Assembly (NCBI GenBank): GCA_903907865.1
Contig: CAIVPR010000042.1
Location: 1 to 64,000, forward strand
Source of the DNA: an uncultured Acidobacteriia bacterium
Lineage (GTDB): Bacteria > Acidobacteriota > Terriglobia > Bryobacterales > Bryobacteraceae
DNA length: 64,000 bases
Direction of reading: 5' to 3'
The notes below the pieces were generated by a model that was given only the letters and a program-made list of their open reading frames with translations, had not been told where the DNA came from and made no database searches. How positions within the stretch are numbered: the first letter of the stretch is position 1; each line of letters starts with the position of its first letter. Both the position numbers and the translations under genes were made by a program. Of the stretch, positions 5 through 36,876 are shown piece after piece.

Positions 5-1677
5 GAGTCTGTCGGGAATAGAGCATCCCAAATTTCCCCGTGGACGTAGACGGCGAAGTCCTTTATCCTGGGTTTGTGGGCAAGAGTTTTCGAGCGGACA
101 ATCTGGATCAGGAGTTGTTGTTGCCACCGTCGTTGCACGACTGGTTGCCGGAGAAGCATCTGGCGCGGTTCATTGTTGACGTAGTCAAGGAACTGGATTT
201 GCGTGCGTTCTACAAGTCCTACGAGGAGGGGGACGGACGGGGTCGGGCGGCGTATGAGCCGGCGATGATGGTTCGTCTTCTTCTATACGGGTACTGCACG
301 GGGTTGGTGAGCAGCCGGAAGATGGAGCGGGCAACTTACGGGGACGTGGCCTTCCGGTACTTGTCGGGGGATTCGCATCCGGACCACGACACGATTTCCT
401 CGTTTCGCAAGCGTCATCTGGAGGCGCTGGCCGGACTGTTTGTGCATGCCTTGCGGCTGTGCCAGAAGGCGGGCCTGGTAAAGCTGGGCCATGTGGCGAT
501 TGACGGAACAAAGATCAAGGCCAATGCCAGCAAGCACAAGGCAATGAGCTACGACCGGATGAATGAAGCGGAACCGCGGCTGCGGCGGGAAGTCGAAGAG
601 TTGCTGCGGCGCGCGGCAGCGGCGGACGAGGCTGAAGACGCGCAGTACGGAAAAGGCAACGCGGGAGACGACCTGCCGGAGGACCTGGCGCGGCGGGACA
701 GCCGGCTGAAGAAAATCCAGGCGGCGAAGGCGGAACTGGAGCGTGAAGCCAGAGAGAAGGCGGAACAACAGCGTCTGGAAGCGGAAGCCCGGATTGCACA
801 GCGGCGGGAGCAGGAGGAGCGGACCGGAAAAAAGGCCGGCGGGCGCGACCCGCAGGTGCCGGACCCGGAGAAGGCAAAGCCGGAAGCCAAGGCGCAGCGC
901 AACTTCACCGATCCGGACAGCCGCATCATGGTGGACGGCGCAAACAAAGGAGCCTTCATCCAGGCCTACAATGCCCAGGCCGCGGTGGACGGCACGGCAC
1001 AGGTGATCGTCGCCGCAGAGCTTACGCAACAAGCCAACGATACCCGGCAACTGGTGCCGATGATCACGAAGGTGGAAGCCAACACCGGAAGGAAGCCGGA
1101 AGCTGTCAGCGCGGACGCCGGGTACTGGAGTGAAGCCAACGTCAATGACGAGCGCGTCCGTGGAATCAACCTGCACATCGCAACCGGCAGGCAGAAGCAT
1201 GGAGGGAAGGTGGAGCCGACCATGGGACCGCCACCGGATGACGCCGCCGCAAAAGAAGCGATGCAACACAAACTGCGGACCGCGGAAGGCAGCCGGGTCT
1301 ATGCGATGCGCAAGGCAATCGTGGAGCCGGTATTCGGACAGATCAAGGAACGCCGCGGTTTCCGGCGCTTCAGCTTCCGGGGACTGGACCAGGCGGGGCT
1401 GGAATGGAAGCTCGTATGCCTCACCGGCAACCTGCTCAAGCTGTTCCGCTCGGGATTGGCACCGCAAGCATCCTGAAGCCAGTCACTGCACCCATGGCGC
1501 GCACGTGCAGACGGCAAGACATCCCCCGTTGCCGCCCAACCCGATTCTCTTCCACTTCGGAAGCCGAATCGTCCCATTGCGGACTTGTCGACGAACAAGC
1601 CGCTACCGCAGTTGCAGGTAAGGATGGAACACCATTTTTGACCGGGACGACTTGGGTGGCTTATTTCCGACAGACTC
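5..1677 (+). mobile_element. Intact IS1182-like insertion sequence flanked by CTAG
   Basis: The two ends form imperfect terminal inverted repeats. The left end after CTAG reads GAGTCTGTCGGGAATA and the right end is its complement with one mismatch. CTAG at 1-4 and again at 1678-1681 is the likely 4-bp target duplication, which fits the preference of several IS1182-family elements for palindromic CTAG sites (family knowledge). The element is 1673 bp with one transposase gene and about 200 bp of non-coding DNA before its right end. It sits 6 bp from the hairpin that ends the cytochrome operon. The window begins exactly at the left CTAG, so this may be a contig edge collapsed on a repeat (inference). 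Confidence 0.88.
40..1476 (+). CDS. IS1182-family transposase
   Basis: This DDE transposase should catalyse cut-and-paste movement of the surrounding element. The N-terminal third has the family pattern LLPPSLHDWLPEKHLARF followed by a DUF772-like region (YEPAMMVRLLLYGYCTG) and the block DHDTISSFRKRH. The catalytic core starts near VAIDGTKIKANAS (first Asp). SADAGYWSE carries the second acidic site, and the C-terminal VEPVFGQIKERRGFRRF carries the Glu. A charged, coiled-coil-prone insertion rich in Glu, Arg and Ala lies between about residues 180 and 290. The start is GTG, the first possible start inside the element. At 478 residues it is full length with no internal stop, so the element may be active. 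Confidence 0.92.
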   Translation: MDVDGEVLYPGFVGKSFRADNLDQELLLPPSLHDWLPEKHLARFIVDVVKELDLRAFYKSYEEGDGRGRAAYEPAMMVRLLLYGYCTGLVSSRKMERATYGDVAFRYLSGDSHPDHDTISSFRKRHLEALAGLFVHALRLCQKAGLVKLGHVAIDGTKIKANASKHKAMSYDRMNEAEPRLRREVEELLRRAAAADEAEDAQYGKGNAGDDLPEDLARRDSRLKKIQAAKAELEREAREKAEQQRLEAEARIAQRREQEERTGKKAGGRDPQVPDPEKAKPEAKAQRNFTDPDSRIMVDGANKGAFIQAYNAQAAVDGTAQVIVAAELTQQANDTRQLVPMITKVEANTGRKPEAVSADAGYWSEANVNDERVRGINLHIATGRQKHGGKVEPTMGPPPDDAAAKEAMQHKLRTAEGSRVYAMRKAIVEPVFGQIKERRGFRRFSFRGLDQAGLEWKLVCLTGNLLKLFRSGLAPQAS

Positions 1678-1747: not shown

Positions 1748-2059
1748 CTACTTCTTCAGCGTCCGGATGAACGCCACCACATCGTCCGGGGGCACAGTCA
1801 GCGTCTTCGACGCCGGCATCTTGCCCTTGCCGTCCGTGATCACCTTCTTCAACTCGGCATCCGACACCGCCTGGACCTTGGCCGACGAGAGGTCGCCCAT
1901 GGTCGGAAACATCTTCGCCATCGTCGCGTTGGGTGTCCCCGCAGCCCCGTGGCAGTTCTTGCAGGACTTGTCGTAGGCCGCCCCGCCCGCCTTCGCATCG
2001 GCCGCCAGCATGGAACTTGCCGGAGCCAACAGCGCCAAAATGAGTACTGCTGTCTTCAC
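1748..2059 (-). CDS. Small periplasmic monoheme cytochrome c
   Basis: A class I cytochrome c of 103 residues. It has a cleavable signal peptide (about residues 1-20, ending near LAADAK), one heme site CKNCH at about residue 33, and a C-terminal GKGKMPAS segment whose Met is the likely distal ligand. It is closely similar to the next gene upstream, so the two are tandem duplicates. The start is GTG, preceded by a good GGAGG ribosome site 8 nt away. As the last gene of the multiheme operon it probably shuttles electrons in the periplasm between the membrane quinol oxidase and the decaheme conduit (inference). Confidence 0.85.
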   Translation of the reverse strand: MKTAVLILALLAPASSMLAADAKAGGAAYDKSCKNCHGAAGTPNATMAKMFPTMGDLSSAKVQAVSDAELKKVITDGKGKMPASKTLTVPPDDVVAFIRTLKK

Positions 2060-2073
2060 TTCCCTACCTCCTC

Positions 2074-2379
2074 TTACTTCTTCAAAGTGTGCACGTAGGC
2101 TGCCAAGTCGTCGATGGATGTCGCCGGCACGGCCGCGATGGCCTTCATCTTGCCCTTGCCCGCAGTGACTGCTGTCTTGACTTCCGCGTCCGTGACGGCC
2201 TTCTTGCTGAAGTCGGGGATGGTGGGCATCATCTTGGCGATCGCCGCGTTGGGCTCTCCCGATGCACCGTGGCAGCCCTTGCAGGACTTGTCATAGATGG
2301 CTCCGCCAGCCTTGGCGTCGGCACCGAACATCATGCTGGCAGGCGCCAGCAGCGCGATCAAGAGCAGTGTCTTCTTCAT
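2074..2379 (-). CDS. Small periplasmic monoheme cytochrome c, paralogue of its neighbour
   Basis: 101 residues with a signal peptide (MKKTLLLIALLAPASMMFGA), one heme site CKGCH and a GKGKMKAI segment likely to supply the axial Met. The N-terminal half aligns closely with the next gene (DAKAGGA-YDKSCK-CHGA-G-PNA-IAKM), while the region around the Met ligand differs, so the two may have different potentials (inference). It has a GGAG site 6 nt before the ATG and lies 14 nt upstream of its twin and 19 nt downstream of the membrane cytochrome. Likely a soluble electron carrier. Confidence 0.85.
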   Translation of the reverse strand: MKKTLLLIALLAPASMMFGADAKAGGAIYDKSCKGCHGASGEPNAAIAKMMPTIPDFSKKAVTDAEVKTAVTAGKGKMKAIAAVPATSIDDLAAYVHTLKK

Positions 2380-2398
2380 GTTGTCTCCAGTTTGGACC

Positions 2399-3817
2399 CT
2401 AGTGGGTTTGTTTTTTCTCGGGAATCCCGAGGGTCTTCAATACCGCCGGTGAAGCCTCGTCAACCGCTACGGCCTCATGGCACAGCGAACAATCGTTGCT
2501 GATAGTTCTATTGTCGCTCGTAGTGTGGGCTCCGTCGTGGCAGCGGAAGCAACCTGGCGCGTCGGTGTGGCCGAGGTTGATCGGATACGTGCCCCAAGTC
2601 ACTTTTAGGTCCGGGAACACGTTGCGGTTGTAGATCTTGACAAGGCCCTTGCCTGCCGCGTCTATCTCGGCGGCGCGGGAAGTGGTGATGTCCGGGTACT
2701 TGGCCTGGTAGAACGCGGCGAGCTTCGAAGGAATCTGCGTCGCGGCAGCCTCGGCGGTCGGATATTCGGCACTGATGATCTCGAGGCCCGTCTTCTTCAT
2801 GAACGGCAGCGACGTGGGCAGCTCGCCTGAGTCGAGGCCGCTGTCGACTGCCTTGGATGCCGGTTGGAACGCATGCGCCGCGCGGTTGTGGCAATCGACG
2901 CACTGCATGTCGTACTTCGGCAGCGCCGCAATTGCTTTGGCATCGACGCCCGAGGCCGGGAACTGGCTCACATGGCCCTTGCCGTCGTCGTAATCGACCC
3001 ATTGGATGGTCTGACGTTTCGGGTCGGCGGGCGCATAGCGGATGTGGACGCCGGGTCCCATGTGCGCCTTGTGGATGTCGCCTTCCCGCACCGTCAGGAC
3101 CGTTTCGGTAAGCGTGTTGGTCTCGTCGTCCCTGTAACTGGAGCGGACACGGACGCTGGAGCCGAGGTCGCGTTCCCGATTGTGGCAGCGCTCGCAGGTC
3201 TCGATGGATTTCACCAGGCGGTTGCTCTCGATCGCCGACTCGATGGGGCGCTTGTAGGTGCTGAACGTCACGTCCTTCAACTGCTTGATGCCCGCGATCT
3301 TCGCCGAAAACCAGCCGGACGCGCCGGGCCCAATGTGGCACTCGACGCACTCCACGTGCGAGTGCAGGGCGTGCGGCGTCTGCTTCCAAGCCGTAAACTC
3401 GGGCTTCATCACGTGGCAACTCTGGCCGCAAAACTGGTCGGTCTCCATTTGCTGGACGGCCCGGTAGGTAGCTTGGCTGCCGATTACGAGGTTGACGAAC
3501 GTCATCAGGCCGAGGAAAGTGACCAGCCTGCCCAGCGACGCACGCCGGTTGGGCATGGTGCGCAGGCCTTGGACCACCTGGCGCCGGGCCAGCAAGACGC
3601 CGATCGGCATCAGGATCAGGCCCAGAATGAGGATCGCCGGGATGATCAGGAACGCCAGGATGCCGATATAAGGGTTATCGGCCTTGCCCTTCAGGTGCAT
3701 GGGCAGGACGAACAACCACGAGAATCCGGCCGTGGTAGTGAGCGCGACCCCGAGCAGGCTGACCCAGTGCTGGGTTAGCAGCGATAGCCAAGATCTACCT
3801 TCACTCTCGGTACTCAT
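2399..3817 (-). CDS. NapC/NirT-type multiheme membrane cytochrome, ImcH/CymA-like quinol oxidase
   Basis: Predicted inner-membrane protein of 472 residues that would take electrons from quinol. Three hydrophobic helices lie at about residues 18-39, 51-77 and 97-114, followed by a periplasmic heme domain. The heme sites are CGQSCH (C130, a CX3CH variant), then CVECH (157), CERCH (208), CVDCH (306), CFRCH (423) and CSLCH (443), six in all. The CX3CH first site and the three-helix anchor recall the Geobacter inner-membrane cytochrome ImcH more than the single-helix CymA (family knowledge). The ATG at 3817 is chosen because it forms an ATGA overlap with the upstream stop. An in-frame start at 3883 would add a hydrophilic N-terminus. 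Confidence 0.82.
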   Translation of the reverse strand: MSTESEGRSWLSLLTQHWVSLLGVALTTTAGFSWLFVLPMHLKGKADNPYIGILAFLIIPAILILGLILMPIGVLLARRQVVQGLRTMPNRRASLGRLVTFLGLMTFVNLVIGSQATYRAVQQMETDQFCGQSCHVMKPEFTAWKQTPHALHSHVECVECHIGPGASGWFSAKIAGIKQLKDVTFSTYKRPIESAIESNRLVKSIETCERCHNRERDLGSSVRVRSSYRDDETNTLTETVLTVREGDIHKAHMGPGVHIRYAPADPKRQTIQWVDYDDGKGHVSQFPASGVDAKAIAALPKYDMQCVDCHNRAAHAFQPASKAVDSGLDSGELPTSLPFMKKTGLEIISAEYPTAEAAATQIPSKLAAFYQAKYPDITTSRAAEIDAAGKGLVKIYNRNVFPDLKVTWGTYPINLGHTDAPGCFRCHDGAHTTSDNRTISNDCSLCHEAVAVDEASPAVLKTLGIPEKKQTH

Positions 3818-4917
3818 TTGGTGCCTTTTGTATTCAGGAACGCAATCAGATCCGACATCTCGCCCGCCCGCAGCACAGGCCACGGAATCTTGCGGGCATT
3901 GGCCTGTTCCAGCATTTGGGGACCATGCCGCCAGAGGGCCGAAACCATGGTGATGCCGCTCCAGTCACCCGCGCGGGCGTGGAGGTCGGGGCCCGGACCG
4001 GCCGATCCATGGCATTCGACACAACGCTTGGAGGCGAAGATCTTGCGGCCCTTGTTCGCGTCGCCGCTGCCCGCGTAGAACTGACTGGCCCAGCGCTGTC
4101 CCAATACCTCGTTGATTTCCTGGCCTTCCAGTTTGGGAGGCTCCAGGTGCAGCAGCGGAGCGTGGTTCCACATGGAGGCGGCCACGTCAGTCAGACTCTT
4201 GGAATGCCCGAGCGGGCGCGATTCGTGACACGACGCGCAGCCTTTGGAGGCGAAGAGCGCGGCACCTTCGGGTCCGACGGTGATGCGGAACGCCTGCGTG
4301 GGAGTCGTCGCCTTCGAAGCGGTGCGCAGATAGACCAGCAGATCCGAGAGTTCCTGAGCCGAAAGGTCTGGCCACTTCAGCTTCTTCTTGGAAAGCTCGG
4401 CCCACATGGTCGAGGTGTGGTTCCACATGGCACCCACCAGAGCAACGGGGTCGCCCAAGGTCTGCCACTGGTTGACCGGCTTCGCGGCGGCATTCGGAGA
4501 TGTGGTCAGGCCGTGGCAGGTGGCGCAGGTCTTGGTGGTGAAGAGGTGTTTGCCTCGACCGGCATCGCCAGGGCTTTCAAAGTAGCGGGCGGAGGAGAAA
4601 GAGGCGAACAGGTCGGAGGCGTCCTGGTCGGTCAGTGTGCCGACCGCGGTGCGCTTCTCCTTGATGGCGGCCCACATGGCCGGGGCATGGTTCCACATGG
4701 CACCGGCCAAGTCCGCCGGAGTCATGGCACGGTCGAGGACCCGGCCGAGGTCAGGAGCCAAACTGCCGCCGACGCCCCTCAACTTGTGGCACTGGATACA
4801 GCCCTGGGATTCGAAGAGCTTGTCGCCGCGGACGGAGTCCATGGGGAGGGCGGCCGCGGACAGGGTGGCTACTGGAAATAGCGCAGCGGAAAGAATGCCG
4901 GTCAACAGCAGTTTCAT
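3814..4917 (-). CDS. Tetraheme cytochrome made of four repeated monoheme domains
   Basis: Secreted protein of 367 residues with a signal peptide (about residues 1-23). Four tandem cytochrome c domains carry CIQCH (C40), CATCH (C131), CASCH (C227) and CVECH (C299). Each is followed about 35 residues later by a related motif: MWNHAPAMW, MWNHTSTMW, MWNHAPLLH and LWRHGPQML. The conserved Met is the likely axial ligand in the first three domains. In the fourth the MWNH Met is Leu, so the Met in HGPQM may take over. The repeat unit is about 90 residues. The start and stop form ATGA overlaps with both neighbours. Its position between the barrel and the quinol oxidase suggests a periplasmic relay (inference). 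Confidence 0.85.
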   Translation of the reverse strand: MKLLLTGILSAALFPVATLSAAALPMDSVRGDKLFESQGCIQCHKLRGVGGSLAPDLGRVLDRAMTPADLAGAMWNHAPAMWAAIKEKRTAVGTLTDQDASDLFASFSSARYFESPGDAGRGKHLFTTKTCATCHGLTTSPNAAAKPVNQWQTLGDPVALVGAMWNHTSTMWAELSKKKLKWPDLSAQELSDLLVYLRTASKATTPTQAFRITVGPEGAALFASKGCASCHESRPLGHSKSLTDVAASMWNHAPLLHLEPPKLEGQEINEVLGQRWASQFYAGSGDANKGRKIFASKRCVECHGSAGPGPDLHARAGDWSGITMVSALWRHGPQMLEQANARKIPWPVLRAGEMSDLIAFLNTKGTK

Positions 4918-6920
4918 CGTGTGTACCTCAATCCGGCGGTCAGAAGGTGCGTGCGGAACGATTCGTAGGCGTAGAACGTTTCGGCGAAGCCGTAATACCG
5001 CCATTCGGCGAACACCGAAAGTGACTTGTTGACCGGCGCCACCACCTTCGCCAGCGGCTGGTAGTAGCTACCGGGGCGGCTGCCCGACGTCCACGACGCC
5101 GCCCCGCCCGCGTTGATCTTGATCTTGCGGTAGGTCCCGTTCAGGAACCCGGAGAGCGCATGGCAATCGTCGCGGTAGACCGAAAGCGCTGGCGAGAGCA
5201 GTTGGGGAACCAGGTAGCTGATCTGCGAGTGCGCGTCGCAGCGGGTGTAGTTGGCCTCGAAGGTCCAGTTGTCGCCTTTGGGTGTCCAATCGAGCGCCAA
5301 CGACTCGCGCTGGTTGCGGAACAGATAGGATGTGCCGTTGTTCGGATTGCGGTTGTCGAGGTAGTTGAAGTCCCCCGAAATCCGCAGGGTGTTGGTCAAC
5401 CGGTATCGGCCCATCATCCGCACCTTAGTGTAGTTGTACAGGCTGGTGCGGAAGTACTCGCCCGTGCTCTGACCGGCTTCCAACTCGCCTGTGAGGGACA
5501 GTTTCGGCGATGGCCGGTAGATGATCGCGCCCAGCCCGACATGCCGGTGCATCGTGGAGGAAGGGTTGGTGGTGAGTGCCTCGGGCGGCAGGACGGCGTC
5601 GCGGACATCGCCCCAAACGTAACGGTAGCCGCCGCGCAACGTGAGCGATTTCGACACTTCGCCGAAAATGCTGGTCTCGGACTGGTTGTAGTTGTAGGCA
5701 AGGTACGCCTGCGGCAGCGTGGTGGTGGTAAGCCCGGCCGAGAGGAACTTGTCCACTTGGTTGGCCGAGGCCGAATTGTGCAACCGGTCGGTCATCCACG
5801 ACTGCTGGATGCGGATGCCGGAGAACGGGCGGATCTCGAACCCCGCATCCGCAGTGGTGTGTGGCAGCTTGGAGGTTGCCGAAACCAGGTACTGCTCATT
5901 GGTGTAGAAGAGTAGGGTGCTTAGAACCACCAAGTTGCCGGTGTCGTACTGCTGGTAGTTCAGGCTGTTGCTCGGCTGGCTGAACAGGAAGTTCGCGTGC
6001 AGGTCCAGCCAGGAAAACGGCGACGCAGTGCCGATCACCTTGCTGTGGGTACCAGTCCCGCGGACGCCGTAGGCTTGCGACAAAGTGCCCAGATTCAGGG
6101 TTTGGCCGATGAAGGGCACCGGGTTGTCGCCGGGATTGGTCTTGGTGGTGTAGGTGTCCTGGTCGTTGCGGAAGATGGTGCCGCCTTCCTCCAGCGTCAA
6201 GTGGTAGCGATTGCCGGAGACATGGAAGCCGCCACGGAACAAGTCGGTCGTGTCGCGCATGAGCGACGGCACCGCATATTCGTTGCCGCCAGTCTGGAAC
6301 GTGGTGACGGACCGGCCGGAGCTCGAATCGCGCTCGTAGTTTAGGTAGGGCGAAATGAGGTGCCCGTTGAACATTTCAAAGTCGTAGGAGCCCATCCGGC
6401 GCTTGGTGTCGAAGGACTGCTGGTCGATCAGGAACGTCGGGTCCGCGTACGAGGGCAGGTTGTTGAAATAGGCCATCTGCCGGAAGTCCGCGAGGAACTT
6501 GTACAGGCCGCGCTTTTCGGCGAAGATGTGCAGGCTGGACCACGGATCGCCCCAGTCGTAGGCTCGGACGCGCAACCGTTCGAAGAGGCGGTGCTTGGGG
6601 TCGAGGATGGTGAAATCCGTGCCCGTGAACTTTGGACCGGAACCGAGATTGACCAAACTGCGCCAAGTGTCGGCGCTGCCGCCGATGCCGGAGCGCCACC
6701 GGTAGCCAGCTTCGACGTAGCCTGTGATCCAGGACTCGTTGGACGGCAGGGGGGAAGCGTCGGGTGCCGGGGCGGCAGCGGCGGGCGCAGCCTCTTCCTT
6801 CTTTGGCTCTTCTTTTTTCGCTTCTTCCTTCGTGGCCTCTTGCTTGGGAGCATCCGCGGGCTTGGCCGCGTCCTGCCCAAGAAGCGGCATCGCCATCAGC
6901 AATAGAATGGTCGCCCTCAT
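4914..6920 (-). CDS. Outer-membrane beta-barrel, probable MtrB/PioB-like conduit porin
   Basis: A 668-residue protein with a short signal peptide (MRATILLLMAMPLLGQ), then a Lys/Glu/Ala-rich stretch at about residues 18-55. The rest consists of alternating amphipathic segments rich in Tyr, Asn and Thr, typical of a large outer-membrane barrel, ending LLTAGLRYTR. The length matches MtrB/PioB proteins (about 650-800), and it lies between an MtrA-type and another multiheme gene, which is the main reason for the call. The N-terminal CXXC found in Shewanella MtrB is absent. The ATG at 6920 overlaps the mtrA-like stop as ATGA. It would wrap the decaheme protein to make a trans-membrane electron wire (inference). 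It could be an unrelated large porin. Confidence 0.65.
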   Translation of the reverse strand: MRATILLLMAMPLLGQDAAKPADAPKQEATKEEAKKEEPKKEEAAPAAAAPAPDASPLPSNESWITGYVEAGYRWRSGIGGSADTWRSLVNLGSGPKFTGTDFTILDPKHRLFERLRVRAYDWGDPWSSLHIFAEKRGLYKFLADFRQMAYFNNLPSYADPTFLIDQQSFDTKRRMGSYDFEMFNGHLISPYLNYERDSSSGRSVTTFQTGGNEYAVPSLMRDTTDLFRGGFHVSGNRYHLTLEEGGTIFRNDQDTYTTKTNPGDNPVPFIGQTLNLGTLSQAYGVRGTGTHSKVIGTASPFSWLDLHANFLFSQPSNSLNYQQYDTGNLVVLSTLLFYTNEQYLVSATSKLPHTTADAGFEIRPFSGIRIQQSWMTDRLHNSASANQVDKFLSAGLTTTTLPQAYLAYNYNQSETSIFGEVSKSLTLRGGYRYVWGDVRDAVLPPEALTTNPSSTMHRHVGLGAIIYRPSPKLSLTGELEAGQSTGEYFRTSLYNYTKVRMMGRYRLTNTLRISGDFNYLDNRNPNNGTSYLFRNQRESLALDWTPKGDNWTFEANYTRCDAHSQISYLVPQLLSPALSVYRDDCHALSGFLNGTYRKIKINAGGAASWTSGSRPGSYYQPLAKVVAPVNKSLSVFAEWRYYGFAETFYAYESFRTHLLTAGLRYTR

Positions 6921-7885
6921 TTCAGCAGGTTCCGATCCGCATAGCTGCCATGGATTTTCTGGTGGCAGACCGTGCAATTTTGGTACCGCGGGGACCGCAA
7001 ATCATGGAAGGCCGGGGGCACAACGCCCATGGGCGATCCGACTGCGGGCGTCTTTACGGCTGGCATGTTCGAGTGGCATTCGAGGCAGACCGACTTCACT
7101 TCCTGCCGGACCAGCATGCGCGGATTGCTCGACCCGTGCGGCTCGTGGCAGGTCGCACAGCCTTCGAATCGAACGGGGGCGTGCTCGAACGTGAACGGTC
7201 CGCGCTTGTCGCCATGGCACTTGACGCAACCGACGTCATTGGCAGCGAAGGACTGCACCATCGCCTTGCGGTTGGAACCGTGCGGATTGTGGCAGTCGAC
7301 GCAGGTCATTTCAGCCTCGGGAACCTTGTGCCGGAACGGCTTGGCAAACTGCACCGCGACGTCCTTGTGGCAACTGGAACAGAGCGAGTTCACTTGCGCC
7401 GCGCCCCGCGCCACCAAGCCCGCCGGGCCGTTGCCGTGGATCGTGTGGCAGGAAGTGCAGGCGACCGCATCCTTCATGTGGCTGCTGGAGATCCGCTCGG
7501 AGTGCTTCGCCGTGTTCAAGTGGCAGCTCAAGCAAGTCTTGTCCGTTTCGACGGCAGTCAACTTGAGCGGATTCCGGATATCCTCCGCGGTCGCCGAACC
7601 CGCGTGCTTGGCCCCGGGACCGTGGCAGGATTCGCAACCGTGCTCGTCCCATCCGCCCCGCTTGTCGGTCTCCACGAACGTGTGGGCCGACTTCCGGAAG
7701 TTCTTGTAGATGTCCTCATGGCACATCTGGCAGGTGCTGGAGCCGGCAAAGTCGTCTCCGAAGGGCGTTCCCGCCTTGTGTGCCGCCGCGCCCAGCTGCT
7801 TTGAGCTTTCCTTAGAGCTGGGAGCGGCCCCCGACGCATAAGCGCCGAGGGCCGCAAGGAGAAGGACCACCCTAGTACTGCGCAT
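6917..7885 (-). CDS. mtrA: MtrA/DmsE-family decaheme cytochrome c
   Basis: A 322-residue secreted protein (signal peptide about residues 1-20) with exactly ten CXXCH sites: CQMCH, CESCH, CLSCH, CTSCH, CSSCH, CVDCH, CVKCH, CATCH, CLECH and CTVCH. Length, spacing and the repeated CHxPHG blocks match the DmsE/MtrA/PioA family, whose members sit inside an MtrB-type barrel and carry electrons across the outer membrane (family knowledge). Its stop overlaps the start of the barrel gene (ATGA), and its own start overlaps the end of the decaheme gene upstream by 14 nt. This is the most diagnostic gene of the conduit. Confidence 0.92.
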   Translation of the reverse strand: MRSTRVVLLLAALGAYASGAAPSSKESSKQLGAAAHKAGTPFGDDFAGSSTCQMCHEDIYKNFRKSAHTFVETDKRGGWDEHGCESCHGPGAKHAGSATAEDIRNPLKLTAVETDKTCLSCHLNTAKHSERISSSHMKDAVACTSCHTIHGNGPAGLVARGAAQVNSLCSSCHKDVAVQFAKPFRHKVPEAEMTCVDCHNPHGSNRKAMVQSFAANDVGCVKCHGDKRGPFTFEHAPVRFEGCATCHEPHGSSNPRMLVRQEVKSVCLECHSNMPAVKTPAVGSPMGVVPPAFHDLRSPRYQNCTVCHQKIHGSYADRNLLK

Positions 7886-9986
7886 GGACAGACCCTATTG
7901 AGAACTGCGCCCCAGTCTTGTGGCAGACGGTGCAGCTTTCACCCAACTTGGGGTCGGTTTGCGAGAGGGCATGGACGGCTACCGGAATGTCGGCATGGCA
8001 TCCAGTGCAGGCAGCGGTGATCGGCTGGTCCGGGTTGATGGGCCCTTGCGGGTCGATAACCGGGTTCTTGCCGAGCGGGAGCTTCGCTTCGCTGCCGCCC
8101 GTGTGGCACATGGAGCAGTTGCGCGTATCGCCAGCGGCACCCGTGGAGGACATCGCGGGGTAGCGGACATCGGTGAAGTCGTTGTGGGTCCCACCAAATC
8201 CGACGACCGTGTAGTCCCGACCCAGCGCCAGCAGGTTCTCGCCGGTGTGGATTCGGTGCACGAGCATGTTGAAGTTGATGCCCTGCGGGGGCAGCGCCTT
8301 GTCGGCCGCCACTACAGCTCCGGGACGCCGTGCGGCATCGGTGTTGGACGGATTGTGGCACATGATGCAGTATTCCGGCTGGTTGCGTAGGCCGCCGTGG
8401 ATGGTGGTGAAGCGGACGTGGCACTGTTGGCAGTTCGCGACCGCGACCACTGTACGCCGGGGGGCGACCGTGGAGCCGTCAACCGAGAAGTAGATGACCT
8501 TGTTCACAGCGCCGTACGTGACCGCCGTGGAACTGGTGGTGTTCGGGAGCAGGGTTTCCGTCCTGCGGGCCTCAACGCCGATGGCGAAGGTGCCCTTGGA
8601 ACCGGCCGGCACCGCGTGGGTGAAGGCGTAGGTACAAGTGCCGTCCGCCCCGCACTTGGCTGCAGTCAGGGCGCTTTCGGTTACGTAGCCTGGAGTGGTA
8701 ACGTCGGAGCCGAAGCCCGTGTAGCCGTAGTCCGTGGTTGGACCGGCCATGGTGAATGAAAGCGTTCCGAGGGTACCCGGCAGAATCGGCTTGGATGCGC
8801 TGTCCAACAGGGTGAAGGTCAGGGTCGGCTTCTGTCCGGCCGTACCGTTGTCGACCTTCTTGAGCGCGATCACAACACCGCCGAGCGATGTGGAATCCGC
8901 GGGAACAACGTGCGCACCTTTAATGGAGGCGTCGAAGTCCAACTGGCCCTGCGGGATGTGGCAGGTTGCGCAGAGCGTGTCGCCGACCTGCGGGCCACCG
9001 GCATGGTTCTTGCCGCTGACGAAATCGACGTTGTCGTGGCAGGAACCGCATGCCGCGGCGCTGGGCTTGGTCAAGTAGTTGGTGGCCTGCACGGCACCGG
9101 ACTTCTGGTCGTGGCAAGTTTCGCAGCGACGGGGGTCGGCGGGGAAGACCACCGTAGACCAATCGCTGTTGCCGATGGCGTATTTGCCGCCCGCGATGAC
9201 GCTGGGAAGCTGCGATCCCATGTGGATCTTGTGGATGTACACCTTGAAGTCGACGGAATTTCCGTTCGACGCTTCCGTGGACTGCGGCTGGTGGCAGATG
9301 ACGCAGAGTTCCACCGCGCGGCGGCGCCCGCCGTGGGCCGAAACTTGATCGTGGCAGCGGTTGCAGCTCTGGGTGCGGACCACGTCGCGGACATGCGTCA
9401 CCTTGGCCCCGTTCGGGACAAACGTGTAAACCGTCGTCGCGTTGTTATTTGGGATGCCAAAGGCGGACATATTGCGCGCCGCGTACAGGCCGATGGTGTG
9501 GGTGGCCGTGGTGTCGAAGCCTGTCGGGGCCTTCGTCTTGAAAACATATTGGTATTTGCCCGAATCCAACTGGGTCAGGGTGCCGCCGGAATCGGCGGCG
9601 GCGCGCGTAAAGGTTCCCGCAGCACCAGTGGCTTGGCTCGTGACGTAGGAAGTGTATTGGTCCTGGTTGTTCGGAATGGTCCCGATGACATAGCCGACGG
9701 TGATGGGGCCCGGCGTATAGACGCCGTTGATATCGAGTGGGAGCCCTTGCGGATCGGCCAAGTTGTAGACGACGGTAATAGTGCCGTCGTTGGCGATGGT
9801 CCCCGAGGCGATTTGGATGGTGAGACCCGGACGGAGGAAGTCGATGGTGACGGAACTCAGGTAGGCGGCCTTGTCGTGCGGGCCGTAGGTGGCTTTCTTG
9901 GCGCCGGTGAGCGCGAAGGCTGCCACTAGTAGGATCATCAGCCTCATGGCTTTGACTGCGTATCCCTTGGTTGTCGGTAGTGTCAT
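7872..9986 (-). CDS. mtrC: OmcA/MtrC-family decaheme cytochrome, candidate cell-surface terminal reductase
   Basis: About 704 residues with ten heme sites in two pentaheme clusters: CNRCH, CVICH, CETCH, CGSCH, CATCH, then CQQCH, CIMCH, CSMCH, CTGCH and CTVCH. The clusters are separated and preceded by beta-rich regions, as in MtrC/OmcA. Family hallmarks include CNRCHDQVSAHGGRR, HKIHMG and CIMCHNPSN. In Shewanella such proteins are outer-membrane lipoproteins that reduce metals. Here the hydrophobic signal (LMILLVAAFALTGAKK) ends in Ala-Lys with no lipobox Cys, so export or anchoring must differ. ATGs at 9986 and 9947 are both possible starts, and neither has a strong ribosome site. First gene of the operon. 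Confidence 0.9.
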   Translation of the reverse strand: MTLPTTKGYAVKAMRLMILLVAAFALTGAKKATYGPHDKAAYLSSVTIDFLRPGLTIQIASGTIANDGTITVVYNLADPQGLPLDINGVYTPGPITVGYVIGTIPNNQDQYTSYVTSQATGAAGTFTRAAADSGGTLTQLDSGKYQYVFKTKAPTGFDTTATHTIGLYAARNMSAFGIPNNNATTVYTFVPNGAKVTHVRDVVRTQSCNRCHDQVSAHGGRRRAVELCVICHQPQSTEASNGNSVDFKVYIHKIHMGSQLPSVIAGGKYAIGNSDWSTVVFPADPRRCETCHDQKSGAVQATNYLTKPSAAACGSCHDNVDFVSGKNHAGGPQVGDTLCATCHIPQGQLDFDASIKGAHVVPADSTSLGGVVIALKKVDNGTAGQKPTLTFTLLDSASKPILPGTLGTLSFTMAGPTTDYGYTGFGSDVTTPGYVTESALTAAKCGADGTCTYAFTHAVPAGSKGTFAIGVEARRTETLLPNTTSSTAVTYGAVNKVIYFSVDGSTVAPRRTVVAVANCQQCHVRFTTIHGGLRNQPEYCIMCHNPSNTDAARRPGAVVAADKALPPQGINFNMLVHRIHTGENLLALGRDYTVVGFGGTHNDFTDVRYPAMSSTGAAGDTRNCSMCHTGGSEAKLPLGKNPVIDPQGPINPDQPITAACTGCHADIPVAVHALSQTDPKLGESCTVCHKTGAQFSIGSVHAQY

Positions 9987-10052
9987 AGGAGTTACCCGCC
10001 GAAGCTGTAGCACTCGGGTGGCCAAAGCGCAAGTGTCGTGTTTCTAGCGCGA

Positions 10053-10124
10053 CACCGAGGGTCCTGAACGCTCCAGTACCCCCTCGGTGGCGCACATTGG
10101 CGCAGGGGGTGCGCGATTTGGCGC
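10053..10124. promoter_or_regulatory. Divergent control region with a 9-bp inverted repeat and tandem TGGCGCA boxes
   Basis: Between the conduit operon (leftward) and the universal stress gene (rightward) lies a perfect inverted repeat CACCGAGGG (10053-10061) / CCCTCGGTG (10081-10089) with a 19-nt spacer. It is immediately followed by three TGGCGCA boxes within about 40 bp. The geometry suits a dimeric regulator. No regulator gene is nearby, so the function is inferred. Confidence 0.4.
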
Positions 10125-10203
10125 AGTTACGGTCTCTTGGAGGGCTTCCGGGTCTGGGAATCGATTGGCCCTCGTCGTGCTCCATCCTTGGCGGAGGCCT
10201 GTC

Positions 10204-11112
10204 ATGAGTTTCAGGCACATTTTGTTTCCAGTCGATTTCTCGGGGCGCTGCTACAACGCCGCCCCGTATGTCCGTGCGATGGCGGCACGATCCAAGGCCG
10301 CCGTCACCTTATTGAATGTCGTGGAGACACCTCCGCCATGGGCCGCAGCCGCCGACGGGGGCTACGCCATGGAGTTCGACGTCACTCGAATGAAAGAGGA
10401 GTCTGAACACCAGTTGGCCATCTTCGCCGGGGAAACCTTCCCGGCAGGCGGAACGGACACGGGTAAGGTCGGCTTCGAGGTTGATTCCGGCGACCCCGGC
10501 ACCTGCATCGCGGGTCTGGCAAAGGACTGGGACGCGGACCTTATTATGATGCCCACCCACGGTCGCGGCTTGTTCCGCCGGACCTTGCTGGGTTCGGCAA
10601 CCGCAAAGGTGCTGAACGACGCGCATTGCGCCGTCTGGACCGACGTCCACACCGAAACTCCGGTGCCGCCCGAGCGGGTGGGAATTCACCAAATCGTCTG
10701 CGGCGTCGAACTCGACAACGAGGCATCCGACTTGGAACTGATCCGGTACACGGCGACGCTAGCTGCGGAATGGGATGCCGGTGTCGTCCTCGTACACGCG
10801 GTACCCGGGACCACGGCGCGGCCCGACATGTACTACGACGTGCCTCTGGAGACCTTCCTCCGGGATGTGGCCGTGGAACAGATCGGCAAGCTGCAACTAA
10901 AGGCGGGGACCGACTTCCCGTACGTGGTCGAGGCAGGCCCGGTTGCCGGAACGGTGCGGGAAACAGCGTTGCAGAAGAAGGCGGACCTTGTGGTCATCGG
11001 CCGGGGCGTGATCGGAGAGTTTGCGGGCGGTATGCGGACTCACGCGTACGGGATCATGCGGGAATCGCCGTGCCCGGTGCTGAGCGTTTGGGACAAGACC
11101 GACGTGTTGTAA
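10204..11112 (+). CDS. Tandem-domain universal stress protein
   Basis: 302 residues with two UspA-like domains. The first (about residues 1-150) starts FRHILFPVDFS and ends with the nucleotide-binding pattern THGRGLFRRTLLGSATAKV (GxxG-x9-GS type), so it probably binds ATP. The second (about 155-300) keeps the fold (IHQIVCGVEL, ADLVVIGRGVIG, CPVLSVW) but has a degenerate loop. The ATG at 10204 is chosen because it has a GGAGG site 6 nt upstream. A longer reading from 10087 lacks this and would cover the control region. It lies head-to-head with the cytochrome operon and 7 nt before the dehydrogenase gene, suggesting redox or stress co-regulation (inference). Confidence 0.85.
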   Translation: MSFRHILFPVDFSGRCYNAAPYVRAMAARSKAAVTLLNVVETPPPWAAAADGGYAMEFDVTRMKEESEHQLAIFAGETFPAGGTDTGKVGFEVDSGDPGTCIAGLAKDWDADLIMMPTHGRGLFRRTLLGSATAKVLNDAHCAVWTDVHTETPVPPERVGIHQIVCGVELDNEASDLELIRYTATLAAEWDAGVVLVHAVPGTTARPDMYYDVPLETFLRDVAVEQIGKLQLKAGTDFPYVVEAGPVAGTVRETALQKKADLVVIGRGVIGEFAGGMRTHAYGIMRESPCPVLSVWDKTDVL

Positions 11113-14289: not shown

Positions 14290-14516
14290 CCGCCCGACTC
14301 CGCCCCGAACTGCGCAATCAACTCCCGCGCCTCCTCCAGCCTGTCCGAGGGCACTTGGATCGCGATGTGCTTGTGCAGGAACGGATCGATATCCGTGACC
14401 AAGGTGGCGATCTGGCCTAGGGCGAAGTACGGGATTTCGGCCTCTTCCAAGATCCCTTTGATCAAAGAAAGCTCGATCCGACTGTTGGTTTCGGTGAGTA
14501 TGGACAGGTTGGTCAC
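14286..14516 (-). CDS. DUF2007-like small signal-transducing-type protein
   Basis: A 76-residue protein with the ferredoxin-fold layout of DUF2007 proteins. ILTETNSRIELSLIKGILEE is the first strand and helix, IPYFALGQ follows, and then IAIQVPSDRLEEARELIAQF. Members are small proteins of unclear role, often adjacent to unrelated genes. The start is GTG with AGGGGA about 9 nt upstream. It is the last of three leftward genes with the small membrane protein and the AlbA_2 protein, separated by 30 nt, so co-transcription is likely. Confidence 0.6.
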   Translation of the reverse strand: MTNLSILTETNSRIELSLIKGILEEAEIPYFALGQIATLVTDIDPFLHKHIAIQVPSDRLEEARELIAQFGAESGG

Positions 14517-14546
14517 GGCGCAATCCCCTGCCGCCAGTCTACATCG

Positions 14547-14711
14547 CTACTTCTTCGGCGCGGGCCGCCAATTCGCCATGTCGCGGCCAAACCACGAGAT
14601 GGCCAGGGTCGCGACCACGATCAGTCCCATGGCGATCCAATAGCCGTTCATGTAGCAATAGAAAAGGGCCGCAGCGACCCCGAGAAGGAAAAGACATCCA
14701 CAGGCACACAT
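14547..14711 (-). CDS. Very small membrane protein (54 residues)
   Basis: This short frame starts with ATG three bases after the TGA of the AlbA_2 gene. It begins MCACGCLFLLGVAAALFYCY, then MNGYWIAMGLIVVATLAIS, and ends WFGRDMANWRPAPKK. It is nearly all hydrophobic with two predicted helices and a basic, tryptophan-containing tail. The Cys-rich start (C2, C4, C6) is unusual. No family is recognised. The tight spacing to the upstream stop and the sensible membrane topology are the evidence that it is real. Confidence 0.55.
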   Translation of the reverse strand: MCACGCLFLLGVAAALFYCYMNGYWIAMGLIVVATLAISWFGRDMANWRPAPKK

Positions 14712-14714
14712 AAA

Positions 14715-16406
14715 TCAGGGCCGAACGCCCGGCCTCCACTCTTCGGCAACAGCCAACGCCTTCAAGACCGCCGTCAATGTAGGAGCGTCCGCAGCGAGGT
14801 TTCTTGCCGCCCGCAAGTCCCGGAGGGCAAGTGCGGTCGACTCCCGCGATGCCTCGATCCCACCCACTACAACCGACCGTCCTCTCGCCAATCCCAGAAG
14901 AGCGTTGCCCCGCACCAACAGAACCGCAGCGTTTTCGTTCAGTTCCGGTCTTCCACGGAAACGGGCATCCATGAAGTCGACCGCCGCACGATGGTCGCCC
15001 AACTCGATGAACAGGTTTCCGATACTCGCAACCTCGTCGTCCCAATCGACCGGGGCCGATTCCAAGTGGCCCACTGCGGCGTTCAAGGCCATGCGGGCAC
15101 GGTCGAGATCCCCCGTCAGGATCGCATCGGTTACACGCCTGCGGTCGGTCGCCAAAGCGTGCCTCGGGTGCGCCGGGAGGGTGCAGACCAGTTGCCATTC
15201 GTTGGCCTCGAAACGGGGAGGCGGGCACCCGCGTTCATACATGGTACGGAGGATGGTGGTGATGCCCTGGCCCTCAGCTTGGGCCATATCCAGACGGCTC
15301 AGAAACCATACCAAGCTCTGGTTCCTCCACTTTGGAGGTGCCTGTCCCTGCCGCAGCTGCTCCAAGGAAACGCCGCCCAACAGGGCGCCTGGAGAAAGAA
15401 TCTCGATACGGTCCGAAAACGCCGTGATGCGGGTCGGATAGTGCAGACTGTAATCCCGATGTGCCAGCGCGTTCACCATCGCTTCTTGGAGCGCGCGTCG
15501 GGGGTACTTTTCCGCGTTCTGGATACCGCTCGCCCTGTCATACGCAACGCGGCACTGCTCATCGAGCAGATTGGTCAACCGCCGATACTGGTCGAGGAGG
15601 GTACCCGTCAGCTCGTTCCGCTCGCCGTGTCGTTCGCCCCGGTCCACTCCCGGATAGATCGAAAAATAGCTATGGGCCCCCGGAATGTGCTGTTGCAGGT
15701 TCCGGCCGAACAGCAGCATCGCGAAATTGCGCGGTCGGAGAGTCCCTGTCAGGGGCTCGCGGGCGTATAGCGGCGGAACAAGGGCGTGGAAGGACTTGGT
15801 ATCGGAAAGGTACTGCTCGATGCCGGTATCGGGGTCGGGAAAATCGATCCGCTGGAGGAACTCGCGCAGCGCCAGCAAGTCGAGGTCATTGCGGGTGGCG
15901 GTCTTGCAGGGCTCGTGGTCCCAAGGCTCGGCGTCACCCTTGCGTACCAGCAACTCGCGCAGGACGCCGTTGCGGGCCTCCATCGTGTTGCGGCTGATCC
16001 GGACGTAGTACGGTCCGGCCTCGTCGCGACGACGAAAAAGGTGCGGATGCCGGGTGGCTGGCATGACGAAGACCAAAATTCGGTGATCGGGGGAGTCCGC
16101 GGGCAGTTCCTGCACCAGCGGAACAATGGCGGGCGACACGCGCTCGCGGCAACCGGTCAAAACCTCGCCCTCCACCTCCTTGAGGCGGGCGGCGGTCAAT
16201 CCGACGGTCTTGATGTAGGGGAATCCGTGCTCGTCCCGCGCTTCGGCGGCACCGCACACCACATAGCCGCCGCCGAGGTTGCCCCAATCGTTGGCAAAGG
16301 CGGACAGCGCTTGGACAACATCGTCGGTATCGGCGACGTTTTCCTTCCATTCGACTTGCTCGCTCTCGCGGATGGAGAGTTCCTTGAGGTCGATGTGGTC
16401 GGTCAT
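14715..16406 (-). CDS. Schlafen AlbA_2-domain protein with ATPase-like and TPR-like regions
   Basis: 563 residues. The N-terminus is a Schlafen group III AlbA_2 domain (ESEQVEWKENV, then ALSAFANDWGNLGGGYVVCG). A middle segment follows, and the region ALQEAMVNALAHRDYS / ITAFSDRIEILSPG has the pattern of the ATP-binding fold common in these proteins, often annotated as RecG-related. The last 130 residues (HPRHALATDRRRVTDAILTG onward) are helical and TPR-like. No helicase motors are present. Relatives are transcription regulators or defence components. Its ATG is clear. It heads a leftward group with the small membrane protein and the DUF2007 gene. Confidence 0.75.
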   Translation of the reverse strand: MTDHIDLKELSIRESEQVEWKENVADTDDVVQALSAFANDWGNLGGGYVVCGAAEARDEHGFPYIKTVGLTAARLKEVEGEVLTGCRERVSPAIVPLVQELPADSPDHRILVFVMPATRHPHLFRRRDEAGPYYVRISRNTMEARNGVLRELLVRKGDAEPWDHEPCKTATRNDLDLLALREFLQRIDFPDPDTGIEQYLSDTKSFHALVPPLYAREPLTGTLRPRNFAMLLFGRNLQQHIPGAHSYFSIYPGVDRGERHGERNELTGTLLDQYRRLTNLLDEQCRVAYDRASGIQNAEKYPRRALQEAMVNALAHRDYSLHYPTRITAFSDRIEILSPGALLGGVSLEQLRQGQAPPKWRNQSLVWFLSRLDMAQAEGQGITTILRTMYERGCPPPRFEANEWQLVCTLPAHPRHALATDRRRVTDAILTGDLDRARMALNAAVGHLESAPVDWDDEVASIGNLFIELGDHRAAVDFMDARFRGRPELNENAAVLLVRGNALLGLARGRSVVVGGIEASRESTALALRDLRAARNLAADAPTLTAVLKALAVAEEWRPGVRP

Positions 16407-16482
16407 GCCGTGACTCCGAACGTCAGAACGGAAACGCGGGTCCAGGACGAATCCGGGACCCGCGGCAAAACAAGTTGAAGAA

Positions 16483-17634
16483 CTACTTGGCTGCGGCGGC
16501 CTTGAGGGCGTCCGCCTTGTCCGTCTTTTCCCACGTGAAGGTGTCCTCGCTGCGGCCGAAGTGGCCGAACGCGGCGGTCTTCTTGTAGATCGGACGGCGC
16601 AACTGCAGGTGGTCGATGATCCCCTTTGGGGTCAGCGGGAAGTTGGCGCGGATCAGTTCGGTGATCTTGTTTTCCGAGATGGTACCGGTGCCAAACGTGT
16701 TCACGTTCACCGAAACCGGGTCCGCAACGCCGATGGCGTACGCCAACTGGACTTCCGCCTTGGTCGCCAAACCAGCCGCCACCACGTTCTTCGCGATGTA
16801 GCGGGCCATGTAGCAGGCCGAGCGGTCAACCTTCGTCGGGTCCTTGCCCGAGAACGCGCCGCCGCCGTGACGGCCCATGCCACCGTAGCTGTCCACGATG
16901 ATCTTGCGGCCGGTGAGGCCGGTGTCGCCGTTCGGTCCGCCGATGACGAAGCGCCCGGTCGGGTTGATGTGGTATTTGGTGTTCTCGTCCACCATGTGCT
17001 GCGGAACCACGGGGTCGATGATGTGCTTGCGAACCTGGGCGCGGAGCTCTTCGGTCGAAACGTCGTCGCCGTGCTGGGTCGAGATCACGATGGCGTCAAT
17101 GCGGGTCGGCTTGCCGTCCACGTATTCGACGGAAACCTGGCTCTTGCCGTCGGGGCGGAGCCAAGTCAGGGTGCCGAAGTTGCGAACTTCCGAGAGCTGC
17201 TTGGTCAACTGGTGGGCCAGTTGGATCGGCAGCGGCATCAGTTCTTCGGTTTCGTCGCAGGCGTAGCCGAACATCAGGCCTTGGTCGCCGGCTCCGCCCG
17301 TGTCAACGCCCATCGCGATGTCGGGCGACTGGGTCTGGATGACGTTGAGCACGCCGCAGGTGGCTGCGTCGAAGCCGAAGGCAGCGTCGGTGTAGCCGAT
17401 TTCCGCGATGGTCTTGCGGGCGATGGTCGGGACGTCGATGTGGCCGTTGAAGGTGATTTCACCGGCTACGATGCAGACGCCGGTGGTGACCAGAACCTCG
17501 CAGGCGACGCGCCCGGTGGGATCCTGGGCGAGAACCGCGTCGAGAACCGCATCCGAAATGTTGTCTGCTACCTTGTCGGGGTGGCCTTCGGTGACGGACT
17601 CGGACGTGAATAGAAACTTTTGGACTTCTGCCAT
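16483..17634 (-). CDS. metK: S-adenosylmethionine synthase
   Basis: Converts methionine and ATP to S-adenosylmethionine. All family signatures are present in 383 residues: [16 protein letters not shown] near the N-terminus (metal and ATP binding), [12 protein letters not shown], and the phosphate loop [16 protein letters not shown]. It ends in an Ala/Lys-rich tail. The ATG at 17634 has GGAGAG about 5 nt upstream. The roughly 100 bp leader to the next gene has no riboswitch-like structure that can be recognised. Housekeeping gene, cytoplasmic, normally a tetramer. Confidence 0.97.
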
Positions 17635-17737
17635 GCACTCTCCGTTTTCAGTGGGCTGTTTGATTGAGGCGGGAACCGCTGGTCAACACAAACTTCCAGT
17701 TTAGCAGGGAGACGAGTTGCGGCATACCGAGGGTAGG

Positions 17738-18127
17738 CTAGTACCGGCCCCGCAGCTTGCCGAGGTCGCGGCGGTCGCGCTTGGAAGGTTTCCCGTCGCG
17801 GAAGGCTTCGAATTGCGGCATCAGCTTGCGCTCCTCGGCAACCTTGGCGCGCGCCGCGCGACTCGCCTCGGTTTCGCGGTACATGGTCTGGGCGACTGCC
17901 GCCGACCCGCGCATCTCGCTGACCACCAGAACCTCGACCGTGAATTCGCCGCCCTCGTTCTTGATGCGGAGCATGTCGCCGACCTTTACGTCGCGCGAGG
18001 GCTTGGCCTCGGTACCATTGGCCTCGATGCGACCGAGTTCACAAGCCTTCTGTGAGATCGAGCGGGTCTTGAAGAATCGGGCGGCCCAGAGCCACTTGTC
18101 AATGCGTATCCCGTCCATGGATTCCAT
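17738..18127 (-). CDS. hslR: Hsp15-type S4-domain RNA-binding protein
   Basis: 129 residues, close to the 133 of E. coli Hsp15, which binds stalled 50S subunits carrying nascent chains (family knowledge). The S4 domain occupies the N-terminal two thirds: IRIDKWLWAARFFKTRSISQ, ACELGRIEANG, DVKVGDMLRIK. A basic Arg/Lys tail follows. The ATG at 18127 matches the family start, and a second ATG nine bases on is also possible. It lies 16 nt after the ABC permease stop, so it may be the third gene of that transcript. Confidence 0.85.
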   Translation of the reverse strand: MESMDGIRIDKWLWAARFFKTRSISQKACELGRIEANGTEAKPSRDVKVGDMLRIKNEGGEFTVEVLVVSEMRGSAAVAQTMYRETEASRAARAKVAEERKLMPQFEAFRDGKPSKRDRRDLGKLRGRY

Positions 18128-18143
18128 TTTGGGGCATGCAGCC

Positions 18144-36842: not shown

Positions 36843-36876
36843 CCCATTTCGAGCCGCGAGCGGATATACTACCAGC

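Follow-up and report, generated by a model that had tools for sequence, protein, structure and literature searches.

The window analysed here, a 64,000-nucleotide stretch of DNA from an uncultured Acidobacteriia bacterium, possesses a run of seven genes that probably encodes an outward extracellular electron transfer chain. In this run, the genes of an MtrCAB-type outer-membrane conduit are followed by genes for a tetraheme cytochrome, an inner-membrane quinol oxidase resembling ImcH of Geobacter and two monoheme cytochromes. The arrangement of the conduit genes and the tetraheme gene is already known. The position of the ImcH-like gene beside the conduit, the co-occurrence of the two throughout the order Bryobacterales and their recurrence in other acidobacterial families appear to be new. 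The seven genes are listed below, and the letters in brackets denote the genes and their products throughout the text.

7872..9986, minus strand: mtrC-like outer-surface decaheme cytochrome (C), 704 amino acids (aa); TIGR03507, PF22113 and PDB matches
6917..7885, minus strand: mtrA-like decaheme cytochrome (A), 322 aa; TIGR03508 and PDB 6r2q chain A
4914..6920, minus strand: mtrB-like outer-membrane beta barrel (B), 668 aa; PF11854, AlphaFold2 and Foldseek
3814..4917, minus strand: tetraheme cytochrome (T), 367 aa; four c-type domains, heme count and position
2399..3817, minus strand: ImcH-like inner-membrane quinol oxidase (Q), 472 aa; PF03264, three transmembrane segments, CX3CH and five CXXCH
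2074..2379, minus strand: monoheme cytochrome c, copy 1 (m1), 101 aa; PF13442 and PF00034
1748..2059, minus strand: monoheme cytochrome c, copy 2 (m2), 103 aa; PF13442 and PF00034

Organization of the gene run

The seven open reading frames (ORFs) form a co-directional run on the minus strand (1748-9986) and contain no internal stops. Read from 9986 to 1748, the gene order is mtrC-mtrA-mtrB-tetraheme-quinol oxidase-monoheme-monoheme (C-A-B-T-Q-m1-m2). With the starts given by a first-pass annotation, which had been made from the letters of the window alone, C and A overlap by 14 nucleotides (nt), the A/B, B/T and T/Q pairs overlap by 4 nt each, and the spacing at the last two junctions (Q/m1 and m1/m2) is 19 and 14 nt. 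That annotation described a seven-gene co-directional operon with 32 hemes. Its ORFs are present on one strand at the coordinates it gave, and the motif count also reached 32 heme sites, composed of 31 CXXCH and one CX3CH. C and A contain ten motifs each, T contains four, Q contains five CXXCH along with the CX3CH, m1 and m2 contain one each and the barrel contains none. The tetraheme relay protein and the two monoheme genes of the annotation were thus recovered by their 4 and 1 + 1 CXXCH motifs. A six-frame count of the window found 35 CXXCH strings, of which 31 fall within the seven frames. The seven genes are presumably transcribed as a single unit; a scan of 9800-10250 found no promoter or terminator. 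None of the seven products exceeded the cut-off of a terminal reductase family among the NCBIfam and Pfam models. The source genome of the window (7.5 Mb, 98% complete) belongs to the same family as Paludibaculum fermentans. It has three heme-copper oxidase matches and three matches to PF01578 (cytochrome c assembly), and no match to PF05140 (ResB) was found in it.

The MtrCAB-like conduit

Both decaheme cytochromes were placed in the expected families with scores over the cut-off. C scored 466.9 bits against TIGR03507 (OmcA/MtrC family, cut-off 209.3), also matched PF22113, and its PDB matches are MtrF, MtrC, OmcA and UndA. A scored 252.4 bits against TIGR03508 (DmsE/MtrA family, cut-off 192.2), in agreement with its description as an MtrA-type decaheme in the first-pass annotation. 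Its best PDB match, with an alignment along its length, is 6r2q chain A (E 9.7e-36), which we take to be MtrA; the molecule name in the record differs. By analogy, A is expected to sit within the barrel.

The OmcA/MtrC-type label of C was upheld by family, and two details of the Shewanella protein were not found. Shewanella MtrC is described as having an LXXC lipid anchor and a CX8C pair in domain III (PMC9973256). No LXXC was found in C, which is cysteine-free before residue 208; its true start is perhaps nearer 9947. A lipobox-like string within the first 70 residues was found in five of 71 C sequences of the order, the window's included, a rough count with mechanically set starts. In place of CX8C, C has a CX5C between hemes 5 and 6. 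Both cysteine columns in this region are occupied in 44 of the 71 sequences, while 27 of the 68 MtrC proteins having ten motifs are cysteine-free there. Because of these 27, the possibility that CX5C may act as a redox switch is taken as a lead only.

B passed PF11854 only narrowly (26.9 bits, gathering threshold 23) and matched no NCBIfam model, therefore its fold was examined by AlphaFold2 and Foldseek. A PDB sequence search with the barrel profile also gave no match. The single-chain AlphaFold2 model, built from 41 family members, has a mean predicted local distance difference test (pLDDT) score of 84 and shows 30 strand segments of at least 3 residues; MtrB is described as having 26 barrel strands (PMC7198977). 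The top PDB match of the model in Foldseek is 6r2q_B (E 3.8e-16, TM-scores 0.67/0.68), followed by siderophore receptors from E 1.6e-9. The model thus confirmed the earlier claim of an MtrB-like barrel, with B predicted as a large outer-membrane barrel of the MtrB fold.

The ImcH-like quinol oxidase

PF03264 places Q in the NapC/NirT family, and no second match to this model was found in the source genome. Its best PDB match is NrfH (E 1.4e-8). Hydropathy predicted three membrane segments (19-37, 51-69 and 95-113), adjoined by a CGQSCH (CX3CH) at residue 130; the other five heme sites are CX2CH. All six motifs are invariant in 19 of 19 aligned sequences, the window's included, and for this reason the CX3CH site is considered real. 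CymA has one membrane helix. The six heme motifs and three transmembrane segments of Q rule out CymA, which is described as a tetraheme NapC/NirT protein (PMC8805035). According to PMC6295460, ImcH homologues carry three N-terminal transmembrane motifs, which are adjoined by an atypical CX3CH, and possess 5 to 9 CX2CH. Q bears these marks and is, by its sequence features, ImcH-like. The earlier label of a six-heme NapC/NirT-type quinol oxidase was therefore right in family and heme number and incomplete as a name.

Comparison was made with seven named Geobacter-type genomes chosen among 70 listed loci, namely Geobacter argillaceus, Geobacter sp. OR-1, Geomonas sp. Red32, Oryzomonas japonica, Geomesophilobacter sediminis, Pelotalea chapellei and Anaeromyxobacter soli. 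G. sulfurreducens was not among these loci, and the homology of Q is thus based on seven other genomes and not on GSU3259. The Q profile found a single match in each genome (470-548 bits), and identity of Q to the seven homologues is 32-41%. Six of them possess a CX3CH, six CX2CH and three transmembrane segments. The Anaeromyxobacter homologue has six CX2CH and three transmembrane segments, and CX3CH was not seen in the frame taken.

The tetraheme and monoheme carriers

T is composed of four c-type domains, each with a CXXCH and an MWxH or LWxH motif which may provide the distal heme ligand. All four such motifs are present in 44 of 53 T relatives. The AlphaFold2 model of T is confident (pLDDT 85). 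Compared with the PDB at E up to 10 it gave 82 matches, of which none reached 0.001; several of the weak hits align to a single c-type cytochrome along roughly 100 residues. Its position and heme count would make T the 'c-cyt group 5' described by Baker et al. (PMC8805035). The two monoheme proteins m1 and m2 are 58% identical. A monoheme gene adjoins Q in the same direction in 20 of 61 Q loci, including loci away from the conduit, and m1 and m2 are therefore likely direct partners of Q.

Distribution of the conduit in Bryobacterales

Among 257 genomes of the order, 197 matched TIGR03507 and 169 exceeded its cut-off. In 14 control genomes, E. coli alone matched, below the cut-off. The barrel was found at E 1e-10 in 180 of the 257 genomes, representing 71 of 84 genera. 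Gene order across Bryobacterales had been named in the first-pass annotation as a check on its reading. It was surveyed in 80 loci around B, hand-chosen from listed places and spread over genera, some of them ended by contig edges, and the C-A-B block recurs across them. C and A lie on the same strand in 74 loci, 67 of these with at most 150 nt between the two, and A and B lie on the same strand in 79 loci, at distances of -616 to +336 nt. T was found in 54 loci. Where T and B are paired on one strand (53 loci), T starts within 150 nt of the B end in 51. At L111 and L126 an overlap filter dropped the barrel from the gene-order listing, yet the B search found it. Two mtrC-like genes were observed together, or nearly so, beside mtrAB in L073, L122, L124, L125 and L133.

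Co-occurrence and linkage of Q with the conduit

Q was found at E 1e-30 in 171 of the 257 genomes, with up to 6 candidates scored per genome, so that some absences may be misses. Of the 171, 164 also possess B and 7 do not; 16 further genomes have B without Q, and 70 have neither gene. Q is thus found in 164 of 180 barrel-positive genomes versus 7 of 77 barrel-negative ones (odds ratio 102, Fisher p 1e-38, kinship ignored). The two genes lie on one contig in at least 48 genomes, within 12 kb in at least 40 and within 5 kb in at least 36, while chance would be expected to place them within 12 kb in about 0.7 of 164 genomes of 6.5 Mb. The position of Q varies. It follows T in the window and in L063, L064, L068, L129 and L132, precedes C in L083, L095, L096, L117 and L121, and is divergent in L099.

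Linkage of Q and the conduit is also observed in other families of Acidobacteriota. In a phylum sample of 396 genomes, of which the window's genome and a few more from its family form part, 173 matched the Q profile at 1e-60. Twenty Q loci from 19 of the phylum genomes were hand-chosen from listed places. Q adjoins C-, A- and B-like genes in three of them (L261, L262 and L265). In L266 and L267 the neighbours of Q are an A-like decaheme and a gene that matches B weakly (48 and 50 bits), and in L271 they are an A-like decaheme (136 bits) and an ORF of 739 aa that did not match B. In the remaining 14 loci no conduit gene was found within the stretch read.

To this survey a phylogenetic tree of 69 Q proteins was added, representing 62 acidobacterial proteins (the window's included; 29 labelled as mtr-linked) and the seven Geobacter-type ones. 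The window Q falls in a clade of 19 with support of 100. The Geobacter-type proteins do not form one clade, the Anaeromyxobacter member falling elsewhere. By a quick method, the mtr-linked label changes at least 12 times on the tree, whose sample is non-random and in which cut contigs lose some of the labels. Such a pattern would look like that expected from repeated joining of two working partners.

Two loci of the window's genus show other sets of genes beside a conduit. L070 (genome G016) possesses at 14431-19000, upstream of mtrCAB, a second set including two NapC/NirT proteins with three CXXCH each (PF03264), a 679-aa ORF that matched no Pfam family and, truncated where the stretch ends, an MtrA-like cytochrome (6 motifs seen). 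This set may replace Q in G016, which has no ImcH-like match at 1e-30. L072 (genome G019; 4896-6326, minus strand) encodes a cytochrome b fused to a c-type domain (PF00033, PF00034) after a monoheme gene. Its conduit has no ImcH-like match, and the fused protein is a possible other quinol oxidase.

Q away from the conduit

Twenty further Q loci of the order were fetched, mostly with Q not near B. In ten of them the gene directly before Q, in the same direction, encodes a nine-CXXCH protein; L154 adds an eleventh case, with the two genes 3.6 kb apart. In P. fermentans (G201) this protein of 553 aa contains a b-type domain (PF01292) and is CbcL-like. It shows 29-33% identity to matches in all 7 Geobacter-type genomes (full-length or best matches). 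Nine CX2CH were counted in 7 of 8 Geobacter-type CbcL-like loci; in the eighth (L246) a different ORF was taken. P. fermentans possesses a C-A-B-T cluster, and its CbcL-ImcH pair is 273 kb away. CbcL-like matches at 1e-20 were found in 117 of the 257 genomes. With up to 5 candidates scored per genome, none was found at this threshold in 19 genomes of the window's genus, the window's own included. In the loci read from this genus, Q, where found, either belongs to the mtr run or is accompanied by a monoheme gene; the latter, away from the conduit, was observed in four genomes (L144-L147).

In D. acetexigens, CbcL and ImcH have consecutive accessions and are described as expressed on electrodes (PMC12133095). 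In G. sulfurreducens the potential of the acceptor is reported to decide whether ImcH or CbcL is needed, and the double mutant fails on Fe(III) oxide (PMC5585712). P. fermentans, whose strain P105 is cultured, couples Fe(III) reduction to sugar fermentation, and by 2021 it was the one of three described species of the order reported to reduce Fe(III) (PMC8407742).

Comparison with known systems

Candidates of mtrA and mtrB were described in Bryobacter and others by Eichorst et al. in 2018 (PMC5900883). Baker et al. in 2022 assigned five MtrCAB clusters of Acidobacteriia to a Group 5, in all of which mtrB is directly followed by a tetraheme gene; mtrC duplicates are reported absent from these clusters and, unlike almost all other groups, they are reported to have no putative inner-membrane quinone oxidoreductase nearby (PMC8805035). 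The window shares with Group 5 the Bryobacterales origin, the mtrCAB genes and the periplasmic tetraheme after mtrB. It differs in that an ImcH-like gene and two monoheme genes continue the run, and several relatives differ from Group 5 in having paired mtrC. The absence of an inner-membrane step reported for Group 5 does not apply to the window and related genomes with Q beside the conduit.

Similarly, the Shewanella oneidensis MtrCAB-CymA system shares two decahemes and a barrel with the window, and A and B match chains A and B of 6r2q. In the window, however, Q is ImcH-like and not CymA, MtrC has CX5C and no lipobox cysteine, and the tetraheme and monoheme carriers share the gene run. The first-pass annotation had pointed to a gene order and additional cytochromes unlike those of Shewanella. 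This is correct against MtrCAB-CymA, but mtrCAB with a tetraheme gene had already been described for Bryobacterales (PMC8805035). With homologues of Geobacter ImcH (GSU3259), Q shares the three N-terminal transmembrane segments, the CX3CH and several CX2CH, while it has five and not six CX2CH and is encoded beside mtrCAB. The CbcL-ImcH pair of PMC12133095 resembles the arrangement in Paludibaculum and relatives, where Q directly follows the CbcL-like gene, and differs from the window's genus, which has no CbcL-like match in its 19 genomes. A 2018 survey is reported to have found no mtrAB/mtoAB adjoining imcH (PMC6295460), and in the open PMC library, within the passages covered on imcH and mtr genes of Acidobacteriota, no paper was found that places imcH in an mtrCAB operon.

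Proposed electron path and its alternatives

In the chain favoured here, Q in the inner membrane would oxidise menaquinol and pass the electrons to m1/m2 and the four-domain T in the periplasm. These would reduce A within the B barrel, by which the electrons would cross the outer membrane, and the surface decaheme C would deliver them to Fe(III)/Mn(IV) minerals, humics or similar acceptors. We infer the order of the carriers, the outward direction, menaquinone as the donor and the acceptor. Outward flow is favoured because of the reported role of ImcH and the Fe(III) reduction of P. fermentans. Q is predicted, by analogy, to oxidise menaquinol for high-potential extracellular acceptors. Since ImcH of Geobacter serves such acceptors and the window's genus lacks CbcL-like matches, only acceptors of relatively high potential are expected.

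Several observations weigh against this chain or limit its importance. As read from its sequence, the MtrC-like protein is without a lipid anchor site. Among the 180 barrel-positive genomes, 16 are without Q at E 1e-30, including four from the genus of the window (G005, G009, G016 and G019), which implies that Q is not indispensable to the conduit. P. fermentans, the sole relative here of known phenotype, has Q apart from its conduit. The three heme-copper oxidase matches indicate that the source bacterium probably respires oxygen too, in which case the conduit could be minor.

The same genes might serve an inward chain, in which electrons from Fe(II) or from another cell enter by MtrC and MtrAB and are fed by the monohemes to a terminal oxidase, as in the PioAB/MtoAB iron oxidisers. 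PioAB and MtoAB are MtrAB homologues working inward, typically without MtrC, and small monoheme carriers such as MtoD resemble the m1/m2 type. The window operon has MtrC, and the direction of flow is not readable from sequence. The heme-copper oxidases would fit such a chain, and MtrAB cores are reported to work in both directions (PMC8805035). It is nevertheless improbable in view of three points: according to PMC6295460, quinol oxidation is the sole role so far ascribed to ImcH; Q is the genome's sole PF03264 protein; and the described phenotype of the family relative is Fe(III) reduction (PMC8407742). The first-pass annotation had allowed respiration of minerals or electrodes as well as oxidation of iron. 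Its conduit is borne out by the family matches and the barrel, while iron oxidation is possible and less favoured than outward flow.

A narrower form of the favoured explanation, compatible with it, is an outward valve which disposes of electrons during fermentation or oxic-anoxic transitions and does not support growth by respiration. The sugar fermentation of P. fermentans coupled to Fe(III) reduction (PMC8407742) and the heme-copper oxidases in the genome are consistent with such a valve, as would be a CX5C that perhaps switches MtrC like the CX8C described in Shewanella (PMC9973256). But a quinol oxidase in the gene run indicates a link to the quinone pool, hence respiration over overflow, and the many ten-motif MtrC proteins free of cysteine between hemes 5 and 6 argue against the switch. 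We regard the valve as possible but on the whole unlikely. Improbable too, in our view, is that Q and the monohemes are passengers serving another periplasmic reductase, with their adjacency to the conduit an accident of lineage. Q lies with a monoheme gene apart from the conduit in L144-L147 and some conduits have no Q, as passengers would allow. However, the linkage is found with several gene orders, across many genera and in acidobacterial families besides this one, co-occurrence is strong, the repeated label changes on the Q tree speak against such an accident, and no terminal reductase family was matched above its cut-off by any of the seven products.

The outward chain from ImcH to MtrCAB may further be a hybrid, joined by a tetraheme of its own kind, that has belonged to Bryobacteraceae since their founding, is near-general among them and also recurs elsewhere in the phylum. 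We put this forward tentatively, as somewhat less probable than not. If true, the abundant soil Bryobacteraceae would be reducers of minerals or humics as a group and not exceptionally. The gene run described here supplies the inner-membrane step reported missing from acidobacterial Mtr clusters, and it shows that a quinol oxidase of the Geobacter type can be encoded together with an outer-membrane wire of the Shewanella type. The distribution suggests that export of electrons to minerals is widespread in Bryobacterales.

Other features of the window

Beyond m2, an IS1182-family transposase (40-1476, plus strand; NF033551, 384 bits, over the cut-off) is convergent with the 3' end of the operon. 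Four CXXCH strings lie elsewhere than in the operon frames, and two of these belong to a planctomycete-type cytochrome c/PSD domain protein (36715-39597, plus strand; PF07631, PF07627 and PF07635). Between 26921 and 31051 on the plus strand, a single ORF of 1376 aa with an HRDC domain represents a natural fusion of TopoIII and RecQ, matching TIGR01056 with 576 bits and TIGR00614 with 392 bits, both over the cut-off.

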